This document shows, piece by piece, positions 8,077 through 58,488 of a stretch of 64,000 nt of DNA. This stretch comes from an uncultured Clostridia bacterium (GTDB taxonomy: Bacteria > Bacillota > Clostridia > Christensenellales > CAG-917): NCBI GenBank assembly GCA_949286725.1, contig CASECZ010000002.1, forward strand, positions 248,001-312,000, given 5' to 3'. A program made the position numbers and the translations under genes. Position 1 is the first letter of the stretch, and every line of letters starts with the position of its first letter. The notes under the pieces are model-generated. The model made no database searches. It had not been told where the DNA came from and worked only from the letters and a program-made list of their open reading frames with translations.

Positions 8077-8666
8077 CCAAGAACACCAACAAAACCGACC
8101 TCAGAATTCAACGTACGCAAAAAGCCATCGTCGACGCATTCTACGAACTGCTCGACGAAAAGTCTTTCGGCTCCATCACCGTCATAGACATATGCCAGCG
8201 CGCACTCATAAATCGCGGCACGTTCTATACGCATTTCGAGGACAAATATCAACTGCTCGACAAGTGCATAAGCGACATTATGTACGGTCTGCACGAGCAG
8301 GTCAAAAAAGCCCACGGCGAACACGACCTCATCACCTATTACAACGAGGTCATGGACCTCGGCATAAACTTCCTCGCGGGGCACCGCCGCAGAATCCGCA
8401 CCATAATCGTCAAGGCGGACAGCGCCCTCGTGTTCGACAAGGTGCACGAGATTCTCACCCACAACATAATCGGCAGGCTGAGCAAGGCAAAGCCCAAGGA
8501 CGGCAAAGGTAAACTTCCCGCCGATATCCTTGCCGAGTTCTTCGCGGGCGGCATAATATCCCTCATCAAGTGGTGGCTGCTCGAAGAGCCCAACTACACG
8601 CTGGAAGACATCCGCAGACAGTTGAGCGTGCTTGCCGAAACGACGCTCAGCGAGTATTGCGCATAA
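8073..8666 (+). CDS. TetR/AcrR-family transcriptional regulator
   Basis: A 197-residue regulator. The N-terminal helix-turn-helix domain spans about 9-60, with RTQKAIVDAFYELL, ITVIDICQRALINRGTFY and HFEDKYQLL. The rest is the helical ligand and dimerisation domain, ending in a region (about 155-190) typical of TetR-like proteins in Firmicutes. The start overlaps the bioY stop (ATGA), making it the last gene of the operon, and a strong terminator follows. Autoregulation of this operon is a reasonable inference, but no operator was identified. Confidence 0.88.
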   Translation: MTKNTNKTDLRIQRTQKAIVDAFYELLDEKSFGSITVIDICQRALINRGTFYTHFEDKYQLLDKCISDIMYGLHEQVKKAHGEHDLITYYNEVMDLGINFLAGHRRRIRTIIVKADSALVFDKVHEILTHNIIGRLSKAKPKDGKGKLPADILAEFFAGGIISLIKWWLLEEPNYTLEDIRRQLSVLAETTLSEYCA

Positions 8667-8672
8667 AAACCG

Positions 8673-8708
8673 AAAAAAACAACTCCGCATCGACGGAGTT
8701 GTTTTTTC
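8673..8708. terminator. bidirectional terminator between the rocD-bioY-tetR and aro operons
   Basis: A perfect stem (AAAAAACAACTCCG with CGGAGTTGTTTTTT) and a short loop, with T-runs on both strands, between convergent transcription units. Confidence 0.9.
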
Positions 8709-8724
8709 GATACCCACCCGACAC

Positions 8725-8883
8725 TCACAGGTCGTCGGCGTCCTGTTCGGGCGTTTTGAGGGGATTGTCGGGCACACCCGTCCAACACCCGTTGGGGTCG
8801 TAGTGCGACCTGTTGACCTGTTCTTCCGTTTCGTTGCCCGTTGCGGGCGTGAGTTTCGGGTATTTCTTCTTTTTCTTTTTCAT
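8725..8883 (-). CDS. 52-residue small protein, last gene of the aro operon
   Basis: A short gene with a textbook Shine-Dalgarno (GGAGGTGAC) five bases before the ATG. The product begins with M and six lysines, continues KLTPATGNETEEQ, then SHYDPNGCWTGVP, and ends PEQDADDL. The pattern DPxGxWTGxP followed by a QDADDL end is one I remember from small uncharacterised proteins in gut Clostridia; I know no function. It starts 39 nt after the aroQ stop and ends 17 nt before the shared terminator, so it is read on the aro message. A longer overlapping frame on the same strand (8594-8890) crosses the terminator and has no start signal as good. Confidence 0.75.
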   Translation of the reverse strand: MKKKKKKYPKLTPATGNETEEQVNRSHYDPNGCWTGVPDNPLKTPEQDADDL

Positions 8884-8922
8884 AAGTCACCTCCGCTTAC
8901 AGTATGAGCAAAGGCGCTTTCG

Positions 8923-9351
8923 TTATGAGCGGGCAATCAGCGCGTCCAGCGCCTCGGCGTATCCCGCAAAGCCTTTCCCGCATATCCTTTCGAAGGCGTA
9001 CATTCCGACGTAACTCGTTTTGCGGAAGTCCTCGCGGGCATTTATGTCCGTGAGGTGAACTTCCACGGCGGGCAGGGCGACGGCTTTGAGCGCGTCGAGA
9101 ATCGCCACCGAAGTGTGCGTGTACGCACCCGCGTTTATGATGATTCCGTCGAACTTTCCGAGAGCCTTTTGTATGACTGTCACGATGTCGCCCTCGTGGT
9201 TGGACTGAACGCACTTGACCTTCACGCCGCGTTTTTTCGCCTCGGATTTCACGTATGCGACGAGCGCGGCATAGTCGCGCGTGCCGTACGTTTCGGGTTC
9301 GCGTATGCCGAGCATATTGAGGTTAGGCCCGTTGATTACCAAAACTTTCAT
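8923..9351 (-). CDS. aroQ: 3-dehydroquinate dehydratase, type II
   Basis: A 142-residue type II dehydroquinase, the usual length. Visible signatures are INGPNLNMLGIREPETYG (6-23, including the catalytic Tyr), QSNHEGDIV near 49, INAGAYTHTSVAI near 72 (substrate-binding Asn and His) and EVHLTDINARE near 96. It removes water from 3-dehydroquinate to give 3-dehydroshikimate, step 3 of the shikimate pathway. It overlaps the end of the aroE-aroK fusion gene by 29 nt and is the last enzyme gene of the operon. Confidence 0.96.
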   Translation of the reverse strand: MKVLVINGPNLNMLGIREPETYGTRDYAALVAYVKSEAKKRGVKVKCVQSNHEGDIVTVIQKALGKFDGIIINAGAYTHTSVAILDALKAVALPAVEVHLTDINAREDFRKTSYVGMYAFERICGKGFAGYAEALDALIARS

Positions 9352-10588
9352 AGTACTTCTCCTTTATGAACTCCGCGGTCTTCTGCGGTGTGCCGTCGTT
9401 TGTAGCGGTGACGTCCGCAAACGCAAGATAAGCGGGCAGACGTCTGCGGTACATTTCGTCGAGCGCGTTGGTCTGCGACAGAGGTCTGCCTTCGGTGGAC
9501 AATGCGGAAAGGTCGCGTTCGAGGAACACGCCGAACCCGTTGGCTTTGAGCGCGAGGGCGTTGGTCGGGTCGAGAATTGCACCTCCGCCCGTCGCGATTA
9601 CGACGCCTTGCATTGCGGCGCATTTCGTCACGGCTTGTTTTTCCAGTGCGCGGAAACCCGCTTCGCCGCTTTCGGCAAAGATGTCGGGTATGCTTTTGCC
9701 CGCGGCTTTCTCCACTTCGGCGTCGGTGTCGACGAACTTCTTGTTAAGCATTTCCGCAAGCAGCTTTCCCACCGTGCTCTTGCCCGACGAGGGCATTCCG
9801 CACAGCACCACGTCGGTGAGCTTTTCCCGAAGGTCGTTGCATACGCCGATTATGCGTCTGCCTGCGTCGGAGTCGGGCGGGCAGGGCGCGAACGCCTTGC
9901 CGAGGAACAAATCCGCCGCCTGCGCCGCCTGTGCGGTGAGCATAAGCAGTCCGCTTGCGCAGCGTGCGCCCGCGGCTTCGGCTTTCTGCACGAACATCGT
10001 GTCGAGCGGGTTGTACACGGCGTCGAACACGCCTTCCAGCGCGGGGAAGTCCGCGGGGTCGACGGGACAGCCTTCTATGTTCGGGAACATGCCGACGGGG
10101 GTGGTGTTGAACAGCACCTGCGCGTCGGCGACGAGGTCGAGGTTGGAGTAGTTGTATTCGCCGGTGCGGCTCACCACGCGCACGGACTTTGCGCCTTCGC
10201 GCGCGGCGAGCGCGCACGCCGTGTGCGACGTTCCGCCGCTGCCGAGCACCACCACTTTTTTGCCCGCGAGTTCGATGCCCGCGGCACGCAGGGCGAACGA
10301 CATTCCGAAGATGTCCGTGTTGTAACCCGAAAGTTTTCCGTTTCTGTTGACGACGGTGTTGATTGCGCCGCATTCGCGGGCGCAGTCGTCGATTTCGTCC
10401 ACCAGCGCGAAGACGTCGCGCTTATAGGGTATGGTCACGTTGACGGCGGCAAACTCCCGCTTGCGGAAGAACTCCGCAAGTTCGTCGGGTTGCAGGACGC
10501 AAAGTTCGTAACCTTCCACTCCGAAACGGGAGTGCAGGTAGGGCGAATGGCTGTGTCCGAGCGGATTGCCTATCAGCCCGTATCTCAT
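9323..10588 (-). CDS. aroE-aroK: shikimate dehydrogenase-shikimate kinase fusion
   Basis: A 421-residue bifunctional protein for two consecutive shikimate steps. Residues 1 to about 250 are AroE: the shikimate-binding SHSPYLH at 13-19, NVTIPYK with catalytic Lys56, Asp92 in NTDIFG, and the NADP motif LGSGGTSHTA at 115-124. Residues about 258-421 are AroK: P-loop GMPSSGKST at 264-272, DTDAEVEK, the shikimate-binding ATGGGAI, and an EGRPL-type lid near 370. Its ATG overlaps the pheA stop (ATGA). Both activities should be intact because no key residue is missing. Fusion of these two enzymes is unusual compared with separate genes in most bacteria. Confidence 0.93.
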   Translation of the reverse strand: MRYGLIGNPLGHSHSPYLHSRFGVEGYELCVLQPDELAEFFRKREFAAVNVTIPYKRDVFALVDEIDDCARECGAINTVVNRNGKLSGYNTDIFGMSFALRAAGIELAGKKVVVLGSGGTSHTACALAAREGAKSVRVVSRTGEYNYSNLDLVADAQVLFNTTPVGMFPNIEGCPVDPADFPALEGVFDAVYNPLDTMFVQKAEAAGARCASGLLMLTAQAAQAADLFLGKAFAPCPPDSDAGRRIIGVCNDLREKLTDVVLCGMPSSGKSTVGKLLAEMLNKKFVDTDAEVEKAAGKSIPDIFAESGEAGFRALEKQAVTKCAAMQGVVIATGGGAILDPTNALALKANGFGVFLERDLSALSTEGRPLSQTNALDEMYRRRLPAYLAFADVTATNDGTPQKTAEFIKEKYYESFGNQRA

Positions 10589-11730
10589 TGCGACACCTCG
10601 TAGTAACTGCCGAGGAACACGAACTGTTCGCTGCCGAGGTCGAGTTCGGCGACGAGTGCCAGCGTGTCGGAGTTCTCAATTTGTCCTTCGAAGTCGAAGT
10701 AGAACATGAATTCGAAGTCCGTGCCGGGCAGAGGACGCGATTCCAGTTTGGTGAGGTTGAGCCCGAGCGTCGAGAACTTGTTGAGCACGCGGTTGAGGGA
10801 GCCCGACTCGTGGGGCAGAGTCATCATAATGCTGATGCGGTTCGCGGGCGCGTATATTCTGAGGTCCTTGCTGATGCAGATGAATCGGGTGTAGTTGGAG
10901 TCGTTGTCCTGGATGTTGCCGTCCAGTATGCCGAGGTCGTAGAGGTCGGCGCAGTTGCGCGAGGCTATGCACGCGACGTCGTTCCTCTCCGATGTGGCGA
11001 CGCTTTCCGCGGCGACCGCGGTGTTGGCGCACGCAGTGATTTTGATGCCCTTGGGCAGTTTCTGCAAATACTCGGCGCATTGACCGATTGCCTGTTCGTG
11101 GGAGAATATCTCCTTGATGTCCGAGAGTTTGACGCCCTTTTTGGCGAGCAGGTGATGGCACACCCTGAGTTTTATGCTGCGCACGATGTAGAAGTGATGT
11201 TTCTTCATCAGGTCGTAGACGGCGTTGACGCTGCCGACCGCGCTGTTCTCTATGGGCAGCACGCCGAACTCGCAAAGTCCCTTTTCCACCGCCTGGAACA
11301 CGCCCTCGAAATTGCGGAAATAAGTGATGTCGGCAATCTCGAAAAGTTTGTCGGCAGCAATGGAAGAGTAGCTGCCTTCCACGCCCTGACAGGCAACCGT
11401 GCTGCTGACGGGGAAGTACTTTTTGCCGTCCATAAGCACCCGACGCAGATTGTCCGAAAGCGCCGACACGGGCGCGACAAGCCTGCGTTGATATGCGCGT
11501 GAAGTTTCCAAAATCGTCTCAAACACACGTTTAAGATATATTTTTTGCTCGTCATCTGCCGATTTGGTCACTCTTGCGATGATTTTCTTTTCGCGCGAAG
11601 GGTCGGCGACCGCCGTGCGGTTGCGGGCTTTTTCCTCGCCTATTTCCTTGACGACGGACTGACGGGCGAGATACAGCCTTGCGATTTCGTCGTCGATGAC
11701 GTCGATTTTGTTTCTCAGTTCTTCCAGCAT
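10585..11730 (-). CDS. pheA: bifunctional chorismate mutase/prephenate dehydratase (P-protein)
   Basis: A 381-residue P-protein. Residues 1-90 are an AroQ-type chorismate mutase (RNKIDVIDDEIARL, KARN with the active-site Arg and Lys). About 108-290 is prephenate dehydratase, with GVEGSYSS, a VLPIENSAVGSV segment and the NYTRF motif. The C-terminal ACT domain has GSLNRVLNKF and the ESRP phenylalanine-binding motif. It makes phenylpyruvate and is probably feedback-inhibited by phenylalanine through the ACT domain. It starts 11 nt after aroC. The mutase domain is needed for tyrosine as well, since tyrA here has no mutase domain. Confidence 0.95.
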   Translation of the reverse strand: MLEELRNKIDVIDDEIARLYLARQSVVKEIGEEKARNRTAVADPSREKKIIARVTKSADDEQKIYLKRVFETILETSRAYQRRLVAPVSALSDNLRRVLMDGKKYFPVSSTVACQGVEGSYSSIAADKLFEIADITYFRNFEGVFQAVEKGLCEFGVLPIENSAVGSVNAVYDLMKKHHFYIVRSIKLRVCHHLLAKKGVKLSDIKEIFSHEQAIGQCAEYLQKLPKGIKITACANTAVAAESVATSERNDVACIASRNCADLYDLGILDGNIQDNDSNYTRFICISKDLRIYAPANRISIMMTLPHESGSLNRVLNKFSTLGLNLTKLESRPLPGTDFEFMFYFDFEGQIENSDTLALVAELDLGSEQFVFLGSYYEVSQ

Positions 11731-11741
11731 ATCGGTCTCCT

Positions 11742-12842
11742 TTATGCGCCTTTGCGCGGATTTTCGTTTTCGAGATATTCGTCCAGCACGGCAAGTGCCA
11801 CCGCACTTTCGACGGCGGCAACTGCACGCGGTACGACGGTTGCGTCGTGCCTGCCGCCCACGGTGATTTCCGTGTCCGTCATCGTGTCGAGGTCGACGGT
11901 CTTCTGGGGCAGGGATATGGACGGAGTGGGTCTGAACGCCGCGCGGAGCGTCACGGGCATTCCGTTGCTTATGCCGCCGTTCAGCCCGCCCGCGTTGTTG
12001 CTCAGCGTCACCACTTTGCCGTCGCGTACGGCAAACGGGTCGTTCGCCTTGCTGCCCGTCATTCGGGCAATGTCGAACCCCGCGCCGAACTCGACGCCTT
12101 TTACGGCGGGTATGCCGTACACCGCCGCGGCGATTTTGCTTTCAAGTCCGTCCGTGCCGCAGTCGCCCAGTCCCACGGGCAGCCCGCGCACGATACATTC
12201 CACCACGCCGCCCGCGCTGTCGCCTTTTGCCGCGATTTCCTTTACCGCGGCGACGGCTTCCTCCACGCGGGAAAGCATGGGCAGAGGTCTGTCCAGACAC
12301 TCGGCGATTTCCTCTTCCGAGGGTTCGCCGTCGGCGTAGCCGCGACCCTTGACGCCGCCCAGTTCGCCTATGTATGCCGACACGATGATACCGCGTGCGG
12401 CGAGCAGTTGTTTGGCAATGCCGCCCGCTATGACGAGGGGCGCGGTCATTCTGCCCGAAAATCTGCCGCCGCCCGAAGCCGCGGCGTCCGCGCCGTCCTT
12501 TATCGCCGATACGTAATCGGCGTGCGAGGGACGCGGCGTCGAAACGTACGTGTAGTCGGCGGGGCGTATGTTCAAGTTGTCGATGTGTGCGGCAAGCGGC
12601 GCGCCGTCCGTCACGGTGTCGCCCTGCGCATCGGTGCGCAGTCCGCCGTCCCACACGACGGCGTCCTCTTCGCGTCGGGGAGTGGAAAAGAGGTATTTCC
12701 CGCTCTTGCGCCTGTCGGCAAAAGCCTGCACGGCGCGCACGTCCACCTTTTCGCCTGCGGGCAGTCCTTCGAGCACCATGCCCACGGACGCCTCGTGCGA
12801 CCCGCCGTAAATTTTAAGTCGGATTGTGTCAAACAGTTTCAT
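11742..12842 (-). CDS. aroC: chorismate synthase
   Basis: A 366-residue chorismate synthase, which converts EPSP to chorismate using reduced FMN. Family marks are the N-terminal YGGSHEASVG with the FMN-site His, an RRKSGKYLFSTPRREED region, RPSHADY near 105, SGGGRFSGRMTA near 125 and the C-terminal GGRHDATVVPRA. The usual SHG and RxSGRET motifs are modified (SHE, RFSGRMT), so this is a divergent member, but catalytic His residues are present and the locus leaves little doubt. Its start overlaps the end of aroA by 14 nt. Confidence 0.9.
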   Translation of the reverse strand: MKLFDTIRLKIYGGSHEASVGMVLEGLPAGEKVDVRAVQAFADRRKSGKYLFSTPRREEDAVVWDGGLRTDAQGDTVTDGAPLAAHIDNLNIRPADYTYVSTPRPSHADYVSAIKDGADAAASGGGRFSGRMTAPLVIAGGIAKQLLAARGIIVSAYIGELGGVKGRGYADGEPSEEEIAECLDRPLPMLSRVEEAVAAVKEIAAKGDSAGGVVECIVRGLPVGLGDCGTDGLESKIAAAVYGIPAVKGVEFGAGFDIARMTGSKANDPFAVRDGKVVTLSNNAGGLNGGISNGMPVTLRAAFRPTPSISLPQKTVDLDTMTDTEITVGGRHDATVVPRAVAAVESAVALAVLDEYLENENPRKGA

Positions 12843-14085
12843 TCGTCTTTCCTCCGAGTGCGTTCAGCACCTCGAAAAAGTCGGGGTAGGATTTTTTCAC
12901 GGGCGCAATGTTGTCTATCGTTCCTCCCGCAACCAGTCCCGCAACCGCCGCAGACATGACCATACGGTGGTCGTTGAAGGAGCGCGCCTTAAACGGCGAG
13001 ATTTTGCCGCCGTATATGCGGAGCGCGTCCTCGGTTTCGTCGTATTCGGAGCGCACGCCCATTGCCGCGAGATTGCTCATGACGGCGGCAAGGCGGTCGC
13101 TTTCCTTCTCGCGCAGACGCGCCGCCCCCGTGAATACGCTCACGCCGTTCGCCGCGCCCGCCAGCACCGAAAGCACGGGTGCGAGGTCGGGTATGTCCGA
13201 AAGGTCGGCACGGAAGGGTGAAAGCGCGCTTTTGCGTGCGCGGAACGCGTCGCCGTCCTTGCTTACGTCCGCGCCCGCGGTCATAAGCAGGTCGTATATG
13301 CGCTTGTCGGCTTGTTTGCTGTCGGAGTCGAGCCCCGTCACCGTCACGTCGCCCGCGAGCGCGCCCGCCGCAAGCAGAAACGCCGCGTTGGACCAGTCGC
13401 CCTCCGCAACCACGGTGGAGGGGGAATGCAAGCCGCCCGTTATGCGGAATGCCTCGCCGTCGTCGCACACTTCCGCTCCGAAACGCGAGAGCACATCAAG
13501 AGTTATGTTTAGGTATCCTTGCGAAACGCGTTTGCCTTGCGTGCGCAACAGGGAGTTTCCGTGCAGACAGGACAGCGCAAGCAACATCCCGCTGACGTAC
13601 TGCGAACTCACCCCCGCGGGCACGTCGTAAACTCCGCATTCGAGTTTGCCTTCCGTCGAAAAGGGCAGTCGGTCGGCGGAGAAGGTTATGCCGTGCGCTT
13701 TCAGGCAATCGGCAAGCCCGCCTATGGGACGGTCGGGCAATCTTCCTCTGCCCGTGAATTCGGCTTTTCTGCCGAGAGCACAGGCGACGGGAAGCATAAA
13801 GCGGAGCGTGGAGCCGCTTTCCCCGCAGTCGAGCACGCATTCCTTCGCCGCGTTTTCGCGGGGAACGGGCGTGACGAAAAAACCTCTTTCCGTCTTGTCC
13901 GCGACGGCACCGAGCGCGACTATGCAGCGCAGAGTGGCGTCGATATCCTCGGACAGGTCCCGACACACGACTTCGCAGGGGGTGTCGCCGAGTGCCGCGG
14001 CAATCAGCAGGCGGTGGGCGTAGGACTTCGACGTTATCGCGCGCACCGTGCCCGCAACGGCAGAGGGCAGAACTTCGGTTTTCAT
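12829..14085 (-). CDS. aroA: 3-phosphoshikimate 1-carboxyvinyltransferase (EPSP synthase)
   Basis: A 418-residue EPSP synthase. It has the substrate-binding SKSYAHRLLIA near 19, GESGSTLRFMLP near 85 (variant of the usual GN(A/S)GT), DWSNAAFLLAAGAL near 210 and LREKESDRL (RxKESDR) near 315. FNDHRM follows near 370. The start is the ATG that overlaps the aroB stop (ATGA), with GGAGG ten bases upstream; the frame is open much further upstream but that extension lies over aroB. It joins shikimate-3-phosphate and phosphoenolpyruvate. The Ala-for-Ser change in KSxSHR is a natural variant whose effect I cannot predict. Confidence 0.95.
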   Translation of the reverse strand: MKTEVLPSAVAGTVRAITSKSYAHRLLIAAALGDTPCEVVCRDLSEDIDATLRCIVALGAVADKTERGFFVTPVPRENAAKECVLDCGESGSTLRFMLPVACALGRKAEFTGRGRLPDRPIGGLADCLKAHGITFSADRLPFSTEGKLECGVYDVPAGVSSQYVSGMLLALSCLHGNSLLRTQGKRVSQGYLNITLDVLSRFGAEVCDDGEAFRITGGLHSPSTVVAEGDWSNAAFLLAAGALAGDVTVTGLDSDSKQADKRIYDLLMTAGADVSKDGDAFRARKSALSPFRADLSDIPDLAPVLSVLAGAANGVSVFTGAARLREKESDRLAAVMSNLAAMGVRSEYDETEDALRIYGGKISPFKARSFNDHRMVMSAAVAGLVAGGTIDNIAPVKKSYPDFFEVLNALGGKTNETV

Positions 14086-15113
14086 AGCACGAATTCCTCC
14101 CACTTTTCGGGCGAAAGCGCCATAATGTCGCAGTCGCCTATGCCGCGTATGACGACGGCGTTGATTGCGCCGTTCACGAACTTTTTGTCGTGCAGAACGT
14201 GCGGAAGCACCGAGCGCACGGAATAGGGACATTCGGGGAACCCGTATTTTTGCAGAAGCGCGGTTATGCGCTTGTAGTCGGCGGCGGAAAGAATTCCATT
14301 GCTCACGCACGCCCGCGCAATAAGATATATCCCCATCGCCACGCACACTCCGTGCGGAAAGCCGAGCGCGCTCTCCGTCTCAATGGCGTGTCCGAGCGTG
14401 TGCCCGAGATTGAGCAGACGGCGTTTGCCGTTCTCGTTCTCGTCGGCTTCCACAATGTCGCGCTTGTATGCGACGCACGCCTGTACGAGGTCGGTTATGT
14501 TGTCGCGCGATACGCCTTCTTCCAGCATGCGGAAGATTTCGCCGCCCGCGAGCACACCGTACTTGACGGCTTCGCCCATACCGCATTTCCATTCGGACAC
14601 GGGCAGGGTTTCCAGCGTGTCGGCGTCGAACACCACGGCGCGGGGCGGATAAATCCTGCCCGCGAGGTTCTTGCCCGCAGTGAGGTCGACGGCGGTTTTG
14701 CCGCCCACGGAAGAGTCGATTGCGGCAAGGAAAGTCGTCGGCACCTGTACATAGTCGACACCGCGCATATACACGCTTGCGACAAACCCTGCAAGGTCGC
14801 CGACCACGCCGCCGCCCAACGCGACTATAAGGTCGCTGCGGCAGAGTTTGACGTCGGCAAGCCATTCCAGCAGTTCGCCCGCCGTGTTCCAGTTCTTGCT
14901 CTTTTCGCCGTGGGGCACGATGTAGGACACCGTGTCGGCGGGCAGAGAAGAGAGCAACCGCGCAAGATAGAGCGGGGCGACGTTGTCGTCGGTGACGACG
15001 GCGATTTTGCGTCCTGCGACCTTGTCGCCCAACACGGAGGAGAAGGTGTCGATCAGCCCGCGACCTATAATCACGGGGTAGGTTATCGTCGATGTTTTGA
15101 TGTCAAGTTCCAT
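14082..15113 (-). CDS. aroB: 3-dehydroquinate synthase
   Basis: A 343-residue AroB using NAD and a divalent metal. Signatures are PHGEKSKNW near 68, the NAD motif GGGVVGDLAGFVAS at 99-112, PTTFLAAIDSSVGGKTAVD near 124-142 and GMGEAVKYG near 175. The metal-binding His residues include GHTLGHAIE near 238. GGAAAGAT precedes the ATG. It closes DAHP to 3-dehydroquinate, step 2 of the pathway. It begins 45 nt after tyrA and is translationally coupled to aroA. Confidence 0.96.
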   Translation of the reverse strand: MELDIKTSTITYPVIIGRGLIDTFSSVLGDKVAGRKIAVVTDDNVAPLYLARLLSSLPADTVSYIVPHGEKSKNWNTAGELLEWLADVKLCRSDLIVALGGGVVGDLAGFVASVYMRGVDYVQVPTTFLAAIDSSVGGKTAVDLTAGKNLAGRIYPPRAVVFDADTLETLPVSEWKCGMGEAVKYGVLAGGEIFRMLEEGVSRDNITDLVQACVAYKRDIVEADENENGKRRLLNLGHTLGHAIETESALGFPHGVCVAMGIYLIARACVSNGILSAADYKRITALLQKYGFPECPYSVRSVLPHVLHDKKFVNGAINAVVIRGIGDCDIMALSPEKWEEFVL

Positions 15114-15158
15114 ATCTTTCCTTGCAGAAAACGGGTTTTATGTTGTCGTTTTGCACCG

Positions 15159-16031
15159 TTAATCTTCGTCGAGTGCGTTGCTGAGTTTTTTGAGCCTGTC
15201 TTTTTCGACGGACAGTTTGATTTCGTTGCCCTCTTCGAGCAGGTCGAAAAGACCTTCCTCGTCCTTGTTGTCCAGGCAGTCCGCATACGCGACGAGGCGT
15301 TTTGCGACGGCACGTATTTCGGCGGAGAGGCAGTCGGCGTTGTCGGTCATGAGTTCCGTCCACATTGCGGGGTTCATGCGGGCGACGCGGGTCATGTCGC
15401 GGAAACTTCCCGCCGAGTAGCCGTAGTGTTTTTCCGCCGCCGCCGACTTGACGTACGCCGAGGATACGACGTGCGCGAGTTGCGAGGTGTAGGCAATCAT
15501 TCGGTCGTGTTCTTCCGCTGTTGTGATGAGTACGCCTTCCGCGCCTATCTGTTTGTAAATGGCTTTCAGCATTGCCAGCTTTTCGAGAGGGGTGGAAACG
15601 CTGACGAGCAGTACCGTTGCGTTTTCGTACAGTCCCGCGGTCGAATGCGCGACGCCGCTGAACTCTCTGCCCGCCATGGGGTGTCCGCCCGCGAAATCGA
15701 CGTCGGGGTAACGAGAGGCAAACTCCTTCATCATTGCCACGACGGGACGTTTCACGCCCGCGAGGTCCGTCACGGTTGCGCCCTTGTGCATAAGCGGCAG
15801 ATATTCTTCGAGCACCGCGGGCATTGCCGACGGCAGCAAGGCAAGCACGAGCAGGTCGACGTCTTTCGCGTTGTCGTGCGTCAGACGCTCGTGATAGGCT
15901 TTCAGAAGCGCGCCTTTGCACATCGCCTCTTCGTCCGTGTCGAGCGCGAACACCTTGTGTTCCGTCATCTTGACGAGCGCGCGCCCGAGCGAGCCGCCCA
16001 TAAGTCCCAGTCCGATTATGCCGATGTTCAT
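15159..16031 (-). CDS. tyrA: prephenate dehydrogenase
   Basis: A 290-residue monofunctional TyrA. The N-terminal Rossmann motif is GIIGLGLMGGSLG (4-16). The catalytic HPMAG motif lies near 120 and TSQLAHVVS near 185, followed by a helical dimerisation domain. There is no chorismate mutase or ACT domain, so it uses prephenate made by the PheA mutase domain. It oxidises prephenate to 4-hydroxyphenylpyruvate for tyrosine. Its ATG overlaps the aroF stop (ATGA). Confidence 0.95.
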   Translation of the reverse strand: MNIGIIGLGLMGGSLGRALVKMTEHKVFALDTDEEAMCKGALLKAYHERLTHDNAKDVDLLVLALLPSAMPAVLEEYLPLMHKGATVTDLAGVKRPVVAMMKEFASRYPDVDFAGGHPMAGREFSGVAHSTAGLYENATVLLVSVSTPLEKLAMLKAIYKQIGAEGVLITTAEEHDRMIAYTSQLAHVVSSAYVKSAAAEKHYGYSAGSFRDMTRVARMNPAMWTELMTDNADCLSAEIRAVAKRLVAYADCLDNKDEEGLFDLLEEGNEIKLSVEKDRLKKLSNALDED

Positions 16032-17044
16032 TTGTCACGCTCCTTGCCGACGACGGGCAACATAACGTCTATGCGACGCACGAGGTCCTCGAACTGTTCG
16101 GGACGCAGGGATTGCGCACCGTCGCACAGCGCGTGCACGGGGTCGTTGTGCACTTCGATTTCCAGTCCGTCCGCACCCGCTCCGACGGAGGCGAGGGAGA
16201 GAGGCAGAACGAGCCTTGCAAGTCCCGACGCGTGACTGGGGTCGACGAGAATGGGCAGGTGCGTGAGTTCTTTCAGCACGGGGATTGCAGACAGGTCGAG
16301 GGTGTTGCGCGTGTAAGGTTCGAAGGTTCTTATGCCGCGTTCGCACAGGATTACGTCCATATTGCCCTCGGACATGATGTACTCCGCGCTCATCAGCCAT
16401 TCTTCTATTGTCGCCGCCATGCCGCGTTTCAAAAGTATGGGCTTGCGGGTTTTGCCGAGTTCTTTGAGCAATTCGAAGTTCTGCATATTGCGCGCGCCTA
16501 CCTGGATTATATCCACGTCCTCGAAAAGGGGCAGATGTTTGATGTCCATAATCTCGGTAATTACGGGCATACCGACTTCGTGTTTTGCGACGGAAAGGAT
16601 TCTCAGCCCCTCTTCGCGCAGACCCTGGAATGCATAGGGCGAAGTGCGGGGTTTGAACGCGCCGCCGCGCAGGACGGTTGCGCCCGCCGCTTTGACGGCT
16701 TTCGCCACGGCGATGACCTGTTCCTCGCTTTCGACGGAGCAGGGCCCCGCAATCAGCTGGAAGTGCCCGCCGCCGAACAGGTGACCGTCCACGTTGACAA
16801 TCGTGTCCTCGGGGTGGAACTTTCTGTTGGCGTTCTTATACGGTTCCTGAATGCGCTTTACGGACTCCACGATGTCGAGGGAACGGATGAGGTCCTCGTC
16901 CACGACGGAGGTGTCGCCGATAAGCCCCATAATGGTGGTGTTGTCGCCCTTGCTCATATGGATATCCAGCCCCAGTCCTTTTATCCACTTGACGAGGTTG
17001 TCCATCTGTTTTTTGTCGGGATTGTTTTTTATTACGATAATCAT
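16028..17044 (-). CDS. aroF: 3-deoxy-7-phosphoheptulonate (DAHP) synthase, AroF/KdsA-like type
   Basis: A 338-residue DAHP synthase of the class with an N-terminal ferredoxin-like regulatory domain (about 1-70) and a TIM barrel. Barrel motifs are AGPCSVES, KPRTSPYAFQGL, TEIMD, QVGARNMQNF, LLKRG, CERGIRTFEPYTRNTLD, and PILVDPSHASG. It joins phosphoenolpyruvate and erythrose-4-phosphate, the first and usually controlled step. I chose the ATG at 17044, with CGGAG upstream; the frame is open further but would run into the attenuator. As first gene of the operon it lies 47 nt after the attenuator terminator. Confidence 0.96.
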   Translation of the reverse strand: MIIVIKNNPDKKQMDNLVKWIKGLGLDIHMSKGDNTTIMGLIGDTSVVDEDLIRSLDIVESVKRIQEPYKNANRKFHPEDTIVNVDGHLFGGGHFQLIAGPCSVESEEQVIAVAKAVKAAGATVLRGGAFKPRTSPYAFQGLREEGLRILSVAKHEVGMPVITEIMDIKHLPLFEDVDIIQVGARNMQNFELLKELGKTRKPILLKRGMAATIEEWLMSAEYIMSEGNMDVILCERGIRTFEPYTRNTLDLSAIPVLKELTHLPILVDPSHASGLARLVLPLSLASVGAGADGLEIEVHNDPVHALCDGAQSLRPEQFEDLVRRIDVMLPVVGKERDK

Positions 17045-17090
17045 ACTGCACTCCGTGGAAGATGTCTTCCGAGCCGCTTGCCGCGGCAAT

Positions 17091-17119
17091 TAAAAAGACC
17101 GCCTCGGTATGGCGGTCTT
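17091..17119 (-). terminator. attenuator terminator of the aro operon
   Basis: On the minus strand AAGACCGCC, a seven-base loop and GGCGGTCTT run into a U-tract. It stands between the operon promoter and aroF, so it must be bypassed for the aro genes to be read. Its 5' arm is shared with an alternative hairpin (17106-17161). Confidence 0.9.
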
Positions 17120-17161
17120 CTTTACGAGTTATAATCGACGTTCGAACTATCCGCGCATACC
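17106..17161 (-). promoter_or_regulatory. antiterminator pairing of the aro attenuator
   Basis: GGTATGCGCGG (17161-17151), which lies inside the last codons of the leader peptide, can pair with CCGCCATACC (17115-17106): ten base pairs with one bulged C. The second arm contains the 5' arm of the terminator, so the two structures exclude each other. A ribosome resting at the leader stop codon (17149-17147) would cover the first arm and favour termination. Confidence 0.8.
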
Positions 17162-17230
17162 GAAAACAGGGCTCTCGAAATAAAAGCCCTTAAAGTAGAA
17201 GTATGCGTAAGATTTGACCGAACTTTTCAT
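17147..17230 (-). CDS. aromatic leader peptide of the aro attenuator (27 residues)
   Basis: A short frame starting ATG six bases after GAGG and ending TAG. Four Tyr and five Phe codons occur in 27; the core YAYFYFKGFYF (residues 8-18) has eight aromatics in eleven. This is the hallmark of leader peptides that sense charged tRNA in Phe and Tyr operons. A 6-bp hairpin within it (AGGGCT, 17190-17185, with AGCCCT, 17173-17168) could act as the pause structure. Ribosomes slowed at codons 8-18 leave the antiterminator arm (17161-17151) free, so shortage of Tyr-tRNA or Phe-tRNA should raise aro expression. The peptide itself need have no function. Confidence 0.85.
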   Translation of the reverse strand: MKSSVKSYAYFYFKGFYFESPVFGMRG

Positions 17231-17246
17231 GTTTTGCCTCGTCATC

Positions 17247-17275
17247 AATATAAAACCGCGGTGGCGAAATGTCAA
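17247..17275 (-). promoter_or_regulatory. promoter of the aro operon
   Basis: TTGACA, an exact 17-nt spacer and TATATT on the minus strand. The expected transcript start is only about 10-13 nt before the leader-peptide ATG, so the 5' untranslated part is very short. Confidence 0.85.
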
Positions 17276-17310: not shown

Positions 17311-18768
17311 TCACTCGTCCTCGGCGAGGTTGAGCACGCTTATGGCGTCGGTGATGTTCTTTTCCATCGCTTCCTTGCCGTAGGCGTCGACCTCCGTTTT
17401 GTTTTTCTCGCCGTGCGTAAGACAGCCCGCGCCGCCTATGCAGCCGTCAACGCACGCCATACCTTCTATGAAATTGTTGGGCAGAACGCCGCGCGCCGCC
17501 TTTGCCAGCGCGATTCTGCACGCCTCGATGCCGTCGCATGTGACGGGGTTGTACACGAAGTCCGTGTCGCCCTGTTCCTTGATTGCTTCGCCGACGGCGT
17601 CGGTGAGCCCGCCGCTTCTTGCGAATATTCTGCCGAAGTAGGATGCGTTGTCCAGCACGTCTTCGTGCAGATGTTCGATGTCCACCTGCTTCGCGTCGAA
17701 CAGTGCCTGCAACTCCTCGAACGTGATTACGGAGTCGATGTACGGGCGAACTTCGGGTTTCTGGAACTCCATTTTCTTCGCCGTGCAGGGTCCGATGAAC
17801 ACCACTTTGCAGGGAGAGGACGTGCTCTTTATGTACTTCGCAATCGTCGCCGCGGGGGAGAGATTGTCCGAAATTTTGTCCGCGAGTTCGGGGAACTGTT
17901 TGTGAATGTAGTCGACGAAAGCGGGACAACACGAACTGGTGAGAAAGCCCTTTTCTTTGAGTTCCTTCGCCTCCTTGAAGGCGACCATGTCCGCGCCGAG
18001 CGCAGCCTCGACGACGTTGAAGAAACCGAGTTTCTTTATGCCCGTGATGACCTGCCCGAGTTTTGCGTAGGTGAACTGACTGGATATGGAGGGCGCGACC
18101 ACGGCGTACATCTTGTATGCGGTGTTGTCGCGGCTACGTTTTATCATATCGATGACGTCGAGAATGAAAGACTTGTCGATAATCGCGCCGAAAGGACACT
18201 GGTAGACGCACGCGCCGCAGGATATGCATTTGTCGTTGTTTATGCTCGCCGCCTTGTTTTCGTTCATCGAAATGGCTTTGACCTTGCAGGAGTTTTCGCA
18301 GGGACGGCGGCGGGAAACGATTGCGCTGTACGGGCAGACCTTGGCACACTGACCGCACTCCACGCAAAGGTTCTTGTCGATGTGCGCTTTTTGCTGGTGG
18401 TCGAAAGTGATTGCGTTTCTGCGGCACACGTCCTCGCAACGGTGCGCAAGACAGCCGCGGCAGGCGTTGGTGACTTCGTAGCCGCCGGCGGGGCAGTCGT
18501 CGCAGGCTATGTCGATGACCTCTATGACGTTGGGGTTTGCGCGGTTGCCGCCCATGGCAAGTTTGACGCGCTCGGCTATTACGGCGCGCTCTTTGTACAC
18601 ACAGCAGCGCATTGTCGGCACGTTGCCCGGTATTATGACCTTCGGTATGTCGGTTACCTTTTCGAGCAGGGTGTCGTTGAACGCATTGCGCGCGACTTCG
18701 CGCAACACTTTGTATTGCAGGTATTGAACTTTGGTATCGAATTTTCTGAGCTTCTTTTTGTCGTCCAT
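17311..18768 (-). CDS. monomeric [FeFe]-hydrogenase, group B type
   Basis: A 485-residue iron-only hydrogenase with extra N-terminal clusters. Cysteine sets for iron-sulfur clusters are at 103/106/111/115, 135/138/141/145 and 181/184/187/191, with further cysteines at 157 and 161. The H-cluster motifs are L1 SSCCPAF (Cys280-281), L2 FIGPCTAKK (Cys328) and L3 MACVDGCIGGAG (Cys439 and 443). These are the group B forms rather than the group A forms of bifurcating enzymes. It probably makes or oxidises hydrogen with ferredoxin. It follows the sensor hydrogenase and phosphatase genes on the same strand. HydEFG maturases are not in the window. Confidence 0.88.
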   Translation of the reverse strand: MDDKKKLRKFDTKVQYLQYKVLREVARNAFNDTLLEKVTDIPKVIIPGNVPTMRCCVYKERAVIAERVKLAMGGNRANPNVIEVIDIACDDCPAGGYEVTNACRGCLAHRCEDVCRRNAITFDHQQKAHIDKNLCVECGQCAKVCPYSAIVSRRRPCENSCKVKAISMNENKAASINNDKCISCGACVYQCPFGAIIDKSFILDVIDMIKRSRDNTAYKMYAVVAPSISSQFTYAKLGQVITGIKKLGFFNVVEAALGADMVAFKEAKELKEKGFLTSSCCPAFVDYIHKQFPELADKISDNLSPAATIAKYIKSTSSPCKVVFIGPCTAKKMEFQKPEVRPYIDSVITFEELQALFDAKQVDIEHLHEDVLDNASYFGRIFARSGGLTDAVGEAIKEQGDTDFVYNPVTCDGIEACRIALAKAARGVLPNNFIEGMACVDGCIGGAGCLTHGEKNKTEVDAYGKEAMEKNITDAISVLNLAEDE

Positions 18769-18814
18769 AATTGCACCGTATTGCGTTTTTATGAGTCAGA
18801 CGGCGGGCATACCG

Positions 18815-19975
18815 TCAGTCGTAATTGAGTTCCACCACTTTGCCCATTGCGCGCAGGTTGGCGGCGATACTTTCGACGAGTTTGAGTTTCATCGTCGTGT
18901 CTATGGGCAAGCCCTGATGCGCCACGTTGATGCTTTGACCGACAAAGAACGTGACGTGCGTCGCGTCCTCGAAGAGCATATTCGCAAGCAGGGACGCGCC
19001 GTCTTTTTTATTGGAGCGTTTTGGCGTGAGATCGGACGTGGAAAGATAAGTTTCGCTCAGTTCCAGCAGTTTGCGCAGGGTAAGTACGCCTTCGGTGGTC
19101 AGATCTATGCCTTTTATGTAACCGATTGGCGGGACGTCCTTGTCGGGAAACTCAAAGGACGCAGCGACCTTTTCTCCGAGATAGCGCGCCACGATTTGCG
19201 AGCTGGTGCCGCCGCACACGATTTTTTTGCCTTCGCCGCCGAGAAACCTGGCGATGTAGAAGTCGTCCTGGTCCTTTTCTACGGGGGGACCCACCATTAT
19301 GCGGACGGGGCAGGCTTTGCGGGCGCGCACCACCGCCACCGTGGTATCGTCGCCGGGTTTGCCGAGGTACAGGTCGTTGCAAGCTCCCGCGAGCAGGCAG
19401 GCGACGCCGCGCGCAGACATACCCGTCTTGAAATTGCGGTCGAGGTGTTCCATAACGTCCTTGCGCAGCCAGCCGAAATTGAGCAACATTCCGATGCCCG
19501 CGTGAATTACTCCGTCGCTCATCAGCACGATGTAGTCGTCGGGACGCAGAGAGAGGCGGGTGCCGTACACCTTTTTGCCGAGAATGTTGTATTCCTTGCG
19601 CTCAAAGTCGCCGCACTTGCCGTCGCGTATCAGAATGGCTTCGGGATTGTCGAATTCGAATAGATATCCGCGCCCTTCCTTGTTGACGTGCACGACGGAA
19701 AAAGTGGAATAGGCAACCTGTCGCACTTTGCATACGGGCAGGGTCTGCACCACGGTTTCGATGCATTCTTCTATGCCTATGTTGTTGGACACCATAGTGC
19801 AAAGAATTTTGGACGTCAGCGTGGAGAGAATGTTGGCTTTGACGCCGCTGCCCAGCCCGTCGGCGAGCACCAGAGTGGTGTATTCGCCGTCGGAAGTCTG
19901 TTCGACTTTGTCGCCGCACAGTTCCTCTCCCTTTTTGTTGAGAGAGGTATATCCGCTTTCGAGAAAGAGTTCCAT
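18815..19975 (-). CDS. SpoIIE/PP2C-type serine phosphatase
   Basis: A 386-residue protein whose first 230 residues are a PP2C-like SpoIIE domain. Metal-binding motifs are GDKVEQ near 21, VLADGLGSG with Asp39, MSDGV near 150 and GKPGDDTTV near 205. The remaining 150 residues form an unrecognised C-terminal domain. No membrane segment is present, unlike sporulation SpoIIE. The ATG overlaps the stop of the HydS-like gene (TGATG), implying tight coupling. From known associations of group C hydrogenases with protein phosphatases I infer that it relays the sensor output. Its target is unknown. Confidence 0.8.
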   Translation of the reverse strand: MELFLESGYTSLNKKGEELCGDKVEQTSDGEYTTLVLADGLGSGVKANILSTLTSKILCTMVSNNIGIEECIETVVQTLPVCKVRQVAYSTFSVVHVNKEGRGYLFEFDNPEAILIRDGKCGDFERKEYNILGKKVYGTRLSLRPDDYIVLMSDGVIHAGIGMLLNFGWLRKDVMEHLDRNFKTGMSARGVACLLAGACNDLYLGKPGDDTTVAVVRARKACPVRIMVGPPVEKDQDDFYIARFLGGEGKKIVCGGTSSQIVARYLGEKVAASFEFPDKDVPPIGYIKGIDLTTEGVLTLRKLLELSETYLSTSDLTPKRSNKKDGASLLANMLFEDATHVTFFVGQSINVAHQGLPIDTTMKLKLVESIAANLRAMGKVVELNYD

Positions 19976-58325: not shown

Positions 58326-58354
58326 TTGACAAAATGCCTGCGCTTTGCTAGAAT
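58326..58354 (+). promoter_or_regulatory. promoter of rplJ-rplL
   Basis: TTGACA, exact 17-nt spacer and TAGAAT, just upstream of the L10 leader. Confidence 0.85.
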
Positions 58355-58363
58355 AAGCGCGTT

Positions 58364-58457
58364 CCTGAGACAGCAAGTGGCGTCCGCGCCGTAAACGTAG
58401 TGCTTGCCGAGGATTGAATTCAATACCGCTCCGGTATTCGTCATTCCGTGTCTTAGG
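58364..58457 (+). ncRNA. ribosomal L10 leader (autoregulatory mRNA element)
   Basis: CCTGAGACA and TGTCTTAGG close the structure with nine pairs. Inside, GAGACAGCAAGTGGC, a variable arm and AGTGCTTGCCGAGGA reproduce the conserved kink-turn region of L10 leaders, which binds the L10(L12)4 complex. A further hairpin (ATACCG/CGGTAT) lies in the 3' part. The rplJ Shine-Dalgarno is 20 nt downstream. Confidence 0.85.
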
Positions 58458-58488
58458 GTGGCGAATTTTATTTTATAAGGAGGTAACA

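Follow-up and report, generated by a model that had tools for sequence, protein, structure and literature searches.

The window analysed in this work is a stretch of 64,000 nt (contig CASECZ010000002.1, positions 248,001-312,000), whose minus strand carries an operon of eight genes in the order aroF-tyrA-aroB-aroA-aroC-pheA-aroEK-aroQ and, 5′ of it, the attenuator described here (Table 1). The neighbouring genes overlap or sit close to each other, with gaps mostly of no more than about 12 bp. They encode all seven steps of the shikimate pathway together with the phenylalanine and tyrosine branches, the final transaminase being absent from the cluster. The sole minus-strand terminator-like site in a scan of 8500-17150 lies beyond aroQ (8708-8673). 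Two genes lie directly 5′ of the attenuator (17311-19975, minus strand), one for a [FeFe] hydrogenase of the monomeric group B1 and the other with a SpoIIE phosphatase domain; the end of the hydrogenase gene, at 17311, is about 80 bp away from the leader ATG.

Table 1 Positions of the attenuator elements and operon genes in the window
Feature	Position	Strand	Characteristics
Promoter	17247..17275	(-)	-35 TTGACA, 17-nt spacer, -10 TATATT; 11/12 consensus positions
Leader peptide ORF MKSSVKSYAYFYFKGFYFESPVFGMRG	17147..17230	(-)	27 codons + TAG; 4 Tyr, 5 Phe
Segment 1 CGCAUACU	17200..17207	(-)	within Tyr8-Ala9-Tyr10-Phe11, codons 8-11
Presumed pause hairpin	17168..17190	(-)	leader codons 14-21; 9 bp, -12.6 kcal/mol, z=-3.9
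Segment 2 CGGUAUGCGCGG	17151..17162	(-)	codons 23-27; partner is segment 1 or segment 3
Segment 3 CCGCCAUACCG	17105..17115	(-)	second antiterminator arm; overlaps first arm and loop of the terminator
3:4 intrinsic terminator AAGACCGCC-AUACCGA-GGCGGUCUU + U tail	17091..17119	(-)	hairpin 17119-17095
aroF, DAHP synthase, first operon gene	16028..17044	(-)	NCBIfam PRK08673, TIGR01361 above cut-off
tyrA, prephenate dehydrogenase	15159..16031	(-)	NCBIfam best E 4e-44, under curated cut-offs
aroB, 3-dehydroquinate synthase	14082..15113	(-)	TIGR01357 above cut-off
aroA, EPSP synthase	12829..14124	(-)	TIGR01356 above cut-off
aroC, chorismate synthase	11742..12842	(-)	TIGR00033 above cut-off
pheA, chorismate mutase / prephenate dehydratase fusion	10585..11730	(-)	E 8.5e-62, slightly under curated cut-off
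aroE-aroK fusion, shikimate dehydrogenase / shikimate kinase in one gene	9323..10588	(-)	-
aroQ, type II 3-dehydroquinate dehydratase	8923..9351	(-)	PF01220, E 2.8e-55
Likely operon-end terminator	8673..8708	(-)	consensus scan, 16 pairs

A promoter and a short open reading frame rich in codons for aromatic amino acids precede aroF. Transcription is predicted to start near 17240, leaving about 10 nt ahead of the leader ATG (17230), and a GAGG motif lies 7 nt 5′ of this codon. Tyr is encoded by codons 8, 10, 12 and 17 of the leader and Phe by codons 11, 13, 16, 18 and 23. On both strands of the 64-kb window this is the sole ORF of up to 60 codons with at least 6 aromatics per 10 codons; its predicted product has no match among the Pfam or NCBIfam HMMs. 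The one promoter-like match found downstream of the terminator is weak (9/12) and overlaps the start codon of aroF, and a transcript from it would start within the gene. A preliminary description of this DNA had listed a consensus promoter, a 27-codon leader with four Tyr and five Phe codons and eight aromatic residues in codons 8-18, all of which agree with the features found here.

Predicted mutually exclusive structures of the leader transcript

Thermodynamic folding, recommended in the preliminary description, gave -52.6 kcal/mol for the whole leader region vs -33.7 kcal/mol for shuffles (z=-5.2). The first structure, the 1:2 protector, is formed by CGCAUACU (17207-17200), which pairs in 8/8 positions with GGUAUGCG (17161-17154), bases that also serve as the first antiterminator arm; the presumed pause hairpin is nested inside the protector. 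The 2:3 antiterminator joins 17162-17151 with 17115-17105 in 11 bp with one bulged C, and the 3:4 terminator hairpin has an energy of -17 kcal/mol (z=-6.3). The pause-type hairpin and the U-tailed terminator sharing the second antiterminator arm had been recognized before. The antiterminator had been correctly located but counted as 10 bp, and, while every element of the earlier inventory is present, segment 1 had been overlooked. All segments of a classical ribosome-mediated transcription attenuator, 1:2, 2:3 and 3:4, are thus found at this locus: there is a run of end-product codons, a 3:4 terminator before the first gene, a 2:3 structure exclusive of 3:4, a segment 2 that a ribosome positioned on the leader stop codon would cover, and a 1:2 protector over the control codons.

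Transcripts of rising length were folded with a ribosome footprint blocked, assumed to extend from about -18 to +12 nt relative to the A-site codon. In this folding model the full transcript adopts 1:2 and 3:4 when the ribosome is absent. With the A-site at codon 8, 10, 11, 12, 13 or 16 the 2:3 structure forms in every tested transcript up to 17097, where the terminator is almost finished. A ribosome placed on the stop codon covers segment 2, and 3:4 alone forms, so that the geometry proposed earlier is reproduced with simulated footprints. In the model the stall range, given earlier as codons 8-18, is narrower: codons 8-16 favour the antiterminator, whereas with the A-site at codons 17-18 segment 1 is free to re-pair with segment 2 and termination is favoured in the model, and therefore weak control by Tyr17 and Phe18 is expected. 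The predicted control codons are Tyr8, Tyr10, Phe11, Tyr12, Phe13 and Phe16, with a weaker predicted contribution of Tyr17/Phe18.

An antiterminator unable to compete with the terminator had been named as a possible refutation. In the growing transcript with the ribosome at codons 8-16 the antiterminator is the minimum-energy state; once the terminator is complete, the equilibrium energies of the two are about equal for stalls at codons 8-10 (2:3 -39.2 vs 3:4 -39.9 kcal/mol at codon 8, -39.5 vs -39.9 kcal/mol at codon 10), and 3:4 beats 2:3 for later stalls. The switch must therefore be kinetic, operating through kinetic trapping and timing.

Conservation within the genus and replacement of arms between clades

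The window genome and nine congeners (L002-L010) were taken as the genus set. The promoter, leader, terminator and antiterminator are present in 10/10 genomes, and the leader frame and stems, whose lack of conservation in relatives would have spoken against the earlier description, are kept along with the promoter in all of them. The promoter consensus TTGACA-(17/18)-TATA(T/G)T (11/12) lies 13-17 nt 5′ of the leader ATG in each case. The proportion of paired cells in the genus alignment is 100% for 2:3, 100% for 1:2 and 98.9% for 3:4, vs 28-43% for slid 2:3 controls, and segment 2 is base-invariant from GGTATGCGCGG onward in 10/10 genomes. The pause hairpin is also retained, its changes being one-sided (wobble). 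Covariation is scant: both-sided changes are limited to one in 2:3 and one in 3:4, and in L008 and L010 U-G replaces U-A in 2:3. Because most pairs are invariant, covariation counts within the genus are uninformative; the clades were instead compared by swapping arms, shuffling sequences and permuting codons.

For the wider comparison aroF relatives were drawn from whole genomes and named contigs, and a leader was recorded as an ORF that starts with ATG, has six or more Tyr/Phe in 10 codons and is located no more than 300 nt 5′ of aroF. Such leaders precede 83 of the 108 related aroF genes vs 4/540 shuffles and 1/1441 control windows from the same contigs, the chance level having been estimated from the window, shuffles and the relatives' contigs. 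About a quarter of the 108 aroF loci examined have no recognisable leader. Among 88 leaders collected from 500 nt upstream, Tyr is present in 88, Phe in 86 and Trp in 4, with residue shares of 15.4%, 18.1% and 0.2%, respectively. Tyr/Phe leaders likewise occur in order- and class-level samples (e.g. L123, L136, L138, L139, L146, L149, L153, L161, L165), and Oscillibacter valericigenes (L048) and Angelakisella massiliensis (L052) are among the carriers. A tyrA-like gene lies within 3 kb 3′ in 63/80 named loci, and an aroB-like gene likewise in 63. As a separate observation, aroF preceded by a Tyr/Phe leader was found in contigs bearing the labels Lentisphaerae, Oligosphaeraceae or Thermoguttaceae (L062, L083, L086, L091, L094); either these contigs are misbinned or aroF and its attenuator were transferred horizontally together.

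Between clades the antiterminator sequences are wholly different and their complementarity is retained. The 2:3 arms of the window genus are CGGUAUG(C)GCGG/CCGCCAUACCG, those of L033 GUUUGGUGU/ACACCAAAC, those of L018 UUUUGGG(U)AUG/CAUCCCAAAA and those of L057 CGUUCGCU(U)GC/GCAGUGAACG. The tests across clades were made on 47 non-redundant loci that have both a leader and a terminator, and they rely on energies, not on alignment columns. When pre-terminator segments and first terminator arms were exchanged between loci, own pairs had a mean energy of -14.9 kcal/mol vs -10.6 kcal/mol for swapped pairs (n=47), an average advantage of 4.3 kcal/mol (z=-12, 0/20000 permutations). The 2:3 pairing also exceeds that of dinucleotide shuffles (z=-12; individually p<=0.05 in 27/47 loci and not significant in 20/47), and 1:2 is stronger than in codon-permuted leaders (z=-8.6; 17/47 individually); these z values overstate independence, as kinship among the 47 loci persists after the redundancy filter. 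In 43/47 loci segment 2 overlaps the stretch that a ribosome on the stop codon would cover. Folding with a simulated stall vs a stop-codon ribosome fits the model in 43/47, a figure that is partly geometric, an arm near the stop codon being always covered. In a truncated transcript free of ribosomes 2:3 is formed in 34/47 loci, which means that the protector does not decide the outcome at every locus. The replacement of arms between clades, as measured by energies, is strong evidence where covariation within the genus is thin.

The same data bear on two other explanations of the locus. The hydrogenase gene ends so close to the leader that the hairpin might be its ordinary terminator, or the region a non-coding 5′ leader in which the aromatic ORF is fortuitous; however, a conserved consensus promoter separates the two, the frequency of leaders is far over that of shuffles and control windows, and complementarity is upheld across clades, which reduces the probability of this explanation almost to nil. 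It might also be supposed that the leader acts mainly by nascent-peptide arrest of the TnaC or erm type, in response to a drug or a free aromatic amino acid and not, codon by codon, to the charging of tRNA. Peptide-arrest leaders can control terminators, and the peptide YFYFKGFYFESP.FGMRG is well conserved within the genus. Between clades, however, the peptide varies freely save for its Tyr/Phe density, as sensing of tRNA predicts, and the genus-conserved C-terminal GMRG coincides with segment 2, where the third positions are invariant too, the last base excepted. Since the codons of segment 2 are invariant at third positions, the conservation of GMRG is explained by RNA pairing, and we regard peptide arrest as the main mode of action as very unlikely.

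Proposed mechanism and relation to known regulatory systems

The region 5′ of aroF is very probably a classical four-segment ribosome-mediated attenuator that responds to the supply of charged tRNA-Tyr and tRNA-Phe and governs the whole shikimate/Tyr/Phe operon. This reading is based on the anatomy of the region, its conservation, the replacement of arms between clades with complementarity retained and the folding logic, from which we infer leader translation, ribosome stalling and termination in vivo. That both Tyr and Phe are sensed and that the entire shikimate pathway is the controlled unit had been suggested before, and the leader codons and gene content of the operon agree with it.

With Tyr-tRNA and Phe-tRNA plentiful, the ribosome would arrive at the leader stop codon and cover segment 2 (17162-17151); segment 3 would then be free to enter the 3:4 terminator and transcription would halt before aroF. 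Scarcity of Tyr-tRNA or Phe-tRNA would stall the ribosome at codons 8-16 and keep segment 1 unpaired from segment 2, and the released segment 2 could form 2:3 before segment 4 is made, allowing RNA polymerase to enter aroF. An untranslated leader would fold into 1:2, with termination as the default.

A T-box with a Tyr or Phe codon, or a metabolite riboswitch, 5′ of aroF would correspond to the usual device of Bacillota, and the window genome does have one T-box, 5′ of a trpB-like gene. However, the T-box covariance model (RF00230) has no match 5′ of aroF, and the Rfam search advised in the preliminary description detected no family at the gathering threshold in the aroF upstream region; RF01859 (Phe_leader) scored 19.6 bits, under its gathering cut-off of 55, and the other weak matches are at chance level. 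The roughly 10 nt between the promoter-defined start and the leader ATG offer no space for a T-box Stem I, and the conserved reading frame of the leader is contrary to a T-box or riboswitch. The Rfam matches being weak only, we rejected this explanation, which appears extremely improbable. Attenuator and T-box are alike in that tRNA charging is sensed and a terminator is the target, but the T-box involves no leader translation and requires Stem I and the specifier, both absent at aroF.

Classical leader-peptide attenuation is taught mainly from Proteobacteria, and Lyubetsky, Gelfand and colleagues have reportedly carried out comparative studies of attenuation. The switch described here resembles E. 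coli pheL (RF01859) and the trp, his and leu attenuators in its residue-rich leader, its 1:2/2:3/3:4 structures and its terminator before the operon; it differs from pheL in its occurrence in Clostridia, in having both Tyr and Phe codons and in controlling the whole shikimate pathway along with tyrA and pheA. The aroF leader of C. glutamicum (aroR) is short, contains Phe-Tyr-Phe and precedes a DAHP synthase gene. It has been attributed to transcriptional attenuation (PMC4046766) and has also been said to mediate Phe and Tyr control of aroF as translational control (PMC7356990). It differs from the Clostridia leader in its occurrence in Actinobacteria, its control region of three residues and its named target, aroF. 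Another predicted uORF with at least one Phe codon and a terminator before aroF, uORFC-13-1, has 24 representatives, restricted to Acholeplasma and environmental sequences (PMC8632094); it has been described without Tyr control or a four-segment model, and its comparison with the Clostridia family is by description only. The earlier remark that Firmicutes mostly employ T-boxes holds in general (PMC1262725). Classical attenuation had, however, already been reported from a member of the Bacillota, S. aureus, where ribosome-mediated attenuation by the Leu-rich attenuator peptide of ilv-leu has mutational support (PMC5794164). That system differs in responding to branched-chain amino acids, in belonging to Bacilli and in its leader and operon.

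Apparently, the leaders reported here form a new and widespread Clostridia family of classical ribosome-mediated attenuation, the mechanism itself being known. As far as searched, the family is taxonomically new: no entry covering the leader RNA or peptide was found in Rfam, Pfam or NCBIfam, an Rfam search of ten diverse relatives gave no match at the leader, and the family is unreported in the openly licensed literature searched, although subscription journals may contain an earlier description. It fills an annotation gap, the RNA being unmatched in Rfam and the peptide in Pfam and NCBIfam. We consider it rather likely that dual Tyr/Phe attenuation, present at most of the aroF loci examined inside and outside the order of the window, is the standard control of aroF-led shikimate operons across much of Clostridia, having taken the place occupied by T-boxes in other Bacillota, with the arms repeatedly replaced and the logic and the Tyr/Phe run kept. 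Leader-peptide attenuation would thereby extend to gut Clostridia as a seemingly common way of regulating a central pathway, a single leader responding to two amino acids ahead of an operon for the synthesis of both. Since the sequences are replaced among relatives and the logic is preserved, the family constitutes a natural data set on attenuator evolution, and it is testable in named carriers such as Oscillibacter valericigenes.

Probable fate of chorismate, and other RNA elements

No chorismate-binding enzyme of the TrpE/PabB class (PF00425) was found in the window genome or its nine congeners (G000-G009), whereas 14/14 control genomes possess one. We infer that chorismate in the genus feeds mainly Phe and Tyr. 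Since they have no PF00425 enzyme, G000-G009 are likely Trp (and p-aminobenzoate) auxotrophs that retain the full shikimate pathway. Trp auxotrophy was considered as the cause of the absence of Trp codons from the leaders and rejected, because relatives with a chorismate-binding enzyme (G015 = L024, G036 = L136 and G038 = L138) also have leaders without Trp, and Trp is rare in the leaders overall (4/88). The single T-box match of the window genome (G000:C3:112402-112642, L113:403-643) lies 5′ of a gene for a TrpB-like PLP enzyme, so that this genome seems to rely on a T-box for the Trp side and on leader-peptide attenuation for Tyr/Phe. Two further RNA elements were noted: a ribosomal protein L10 leader (RF00557) on the plus strand of the window at 58346-58480, and an FMN riboswitch (L016:3813-3942) near the aroF locus of a relative.
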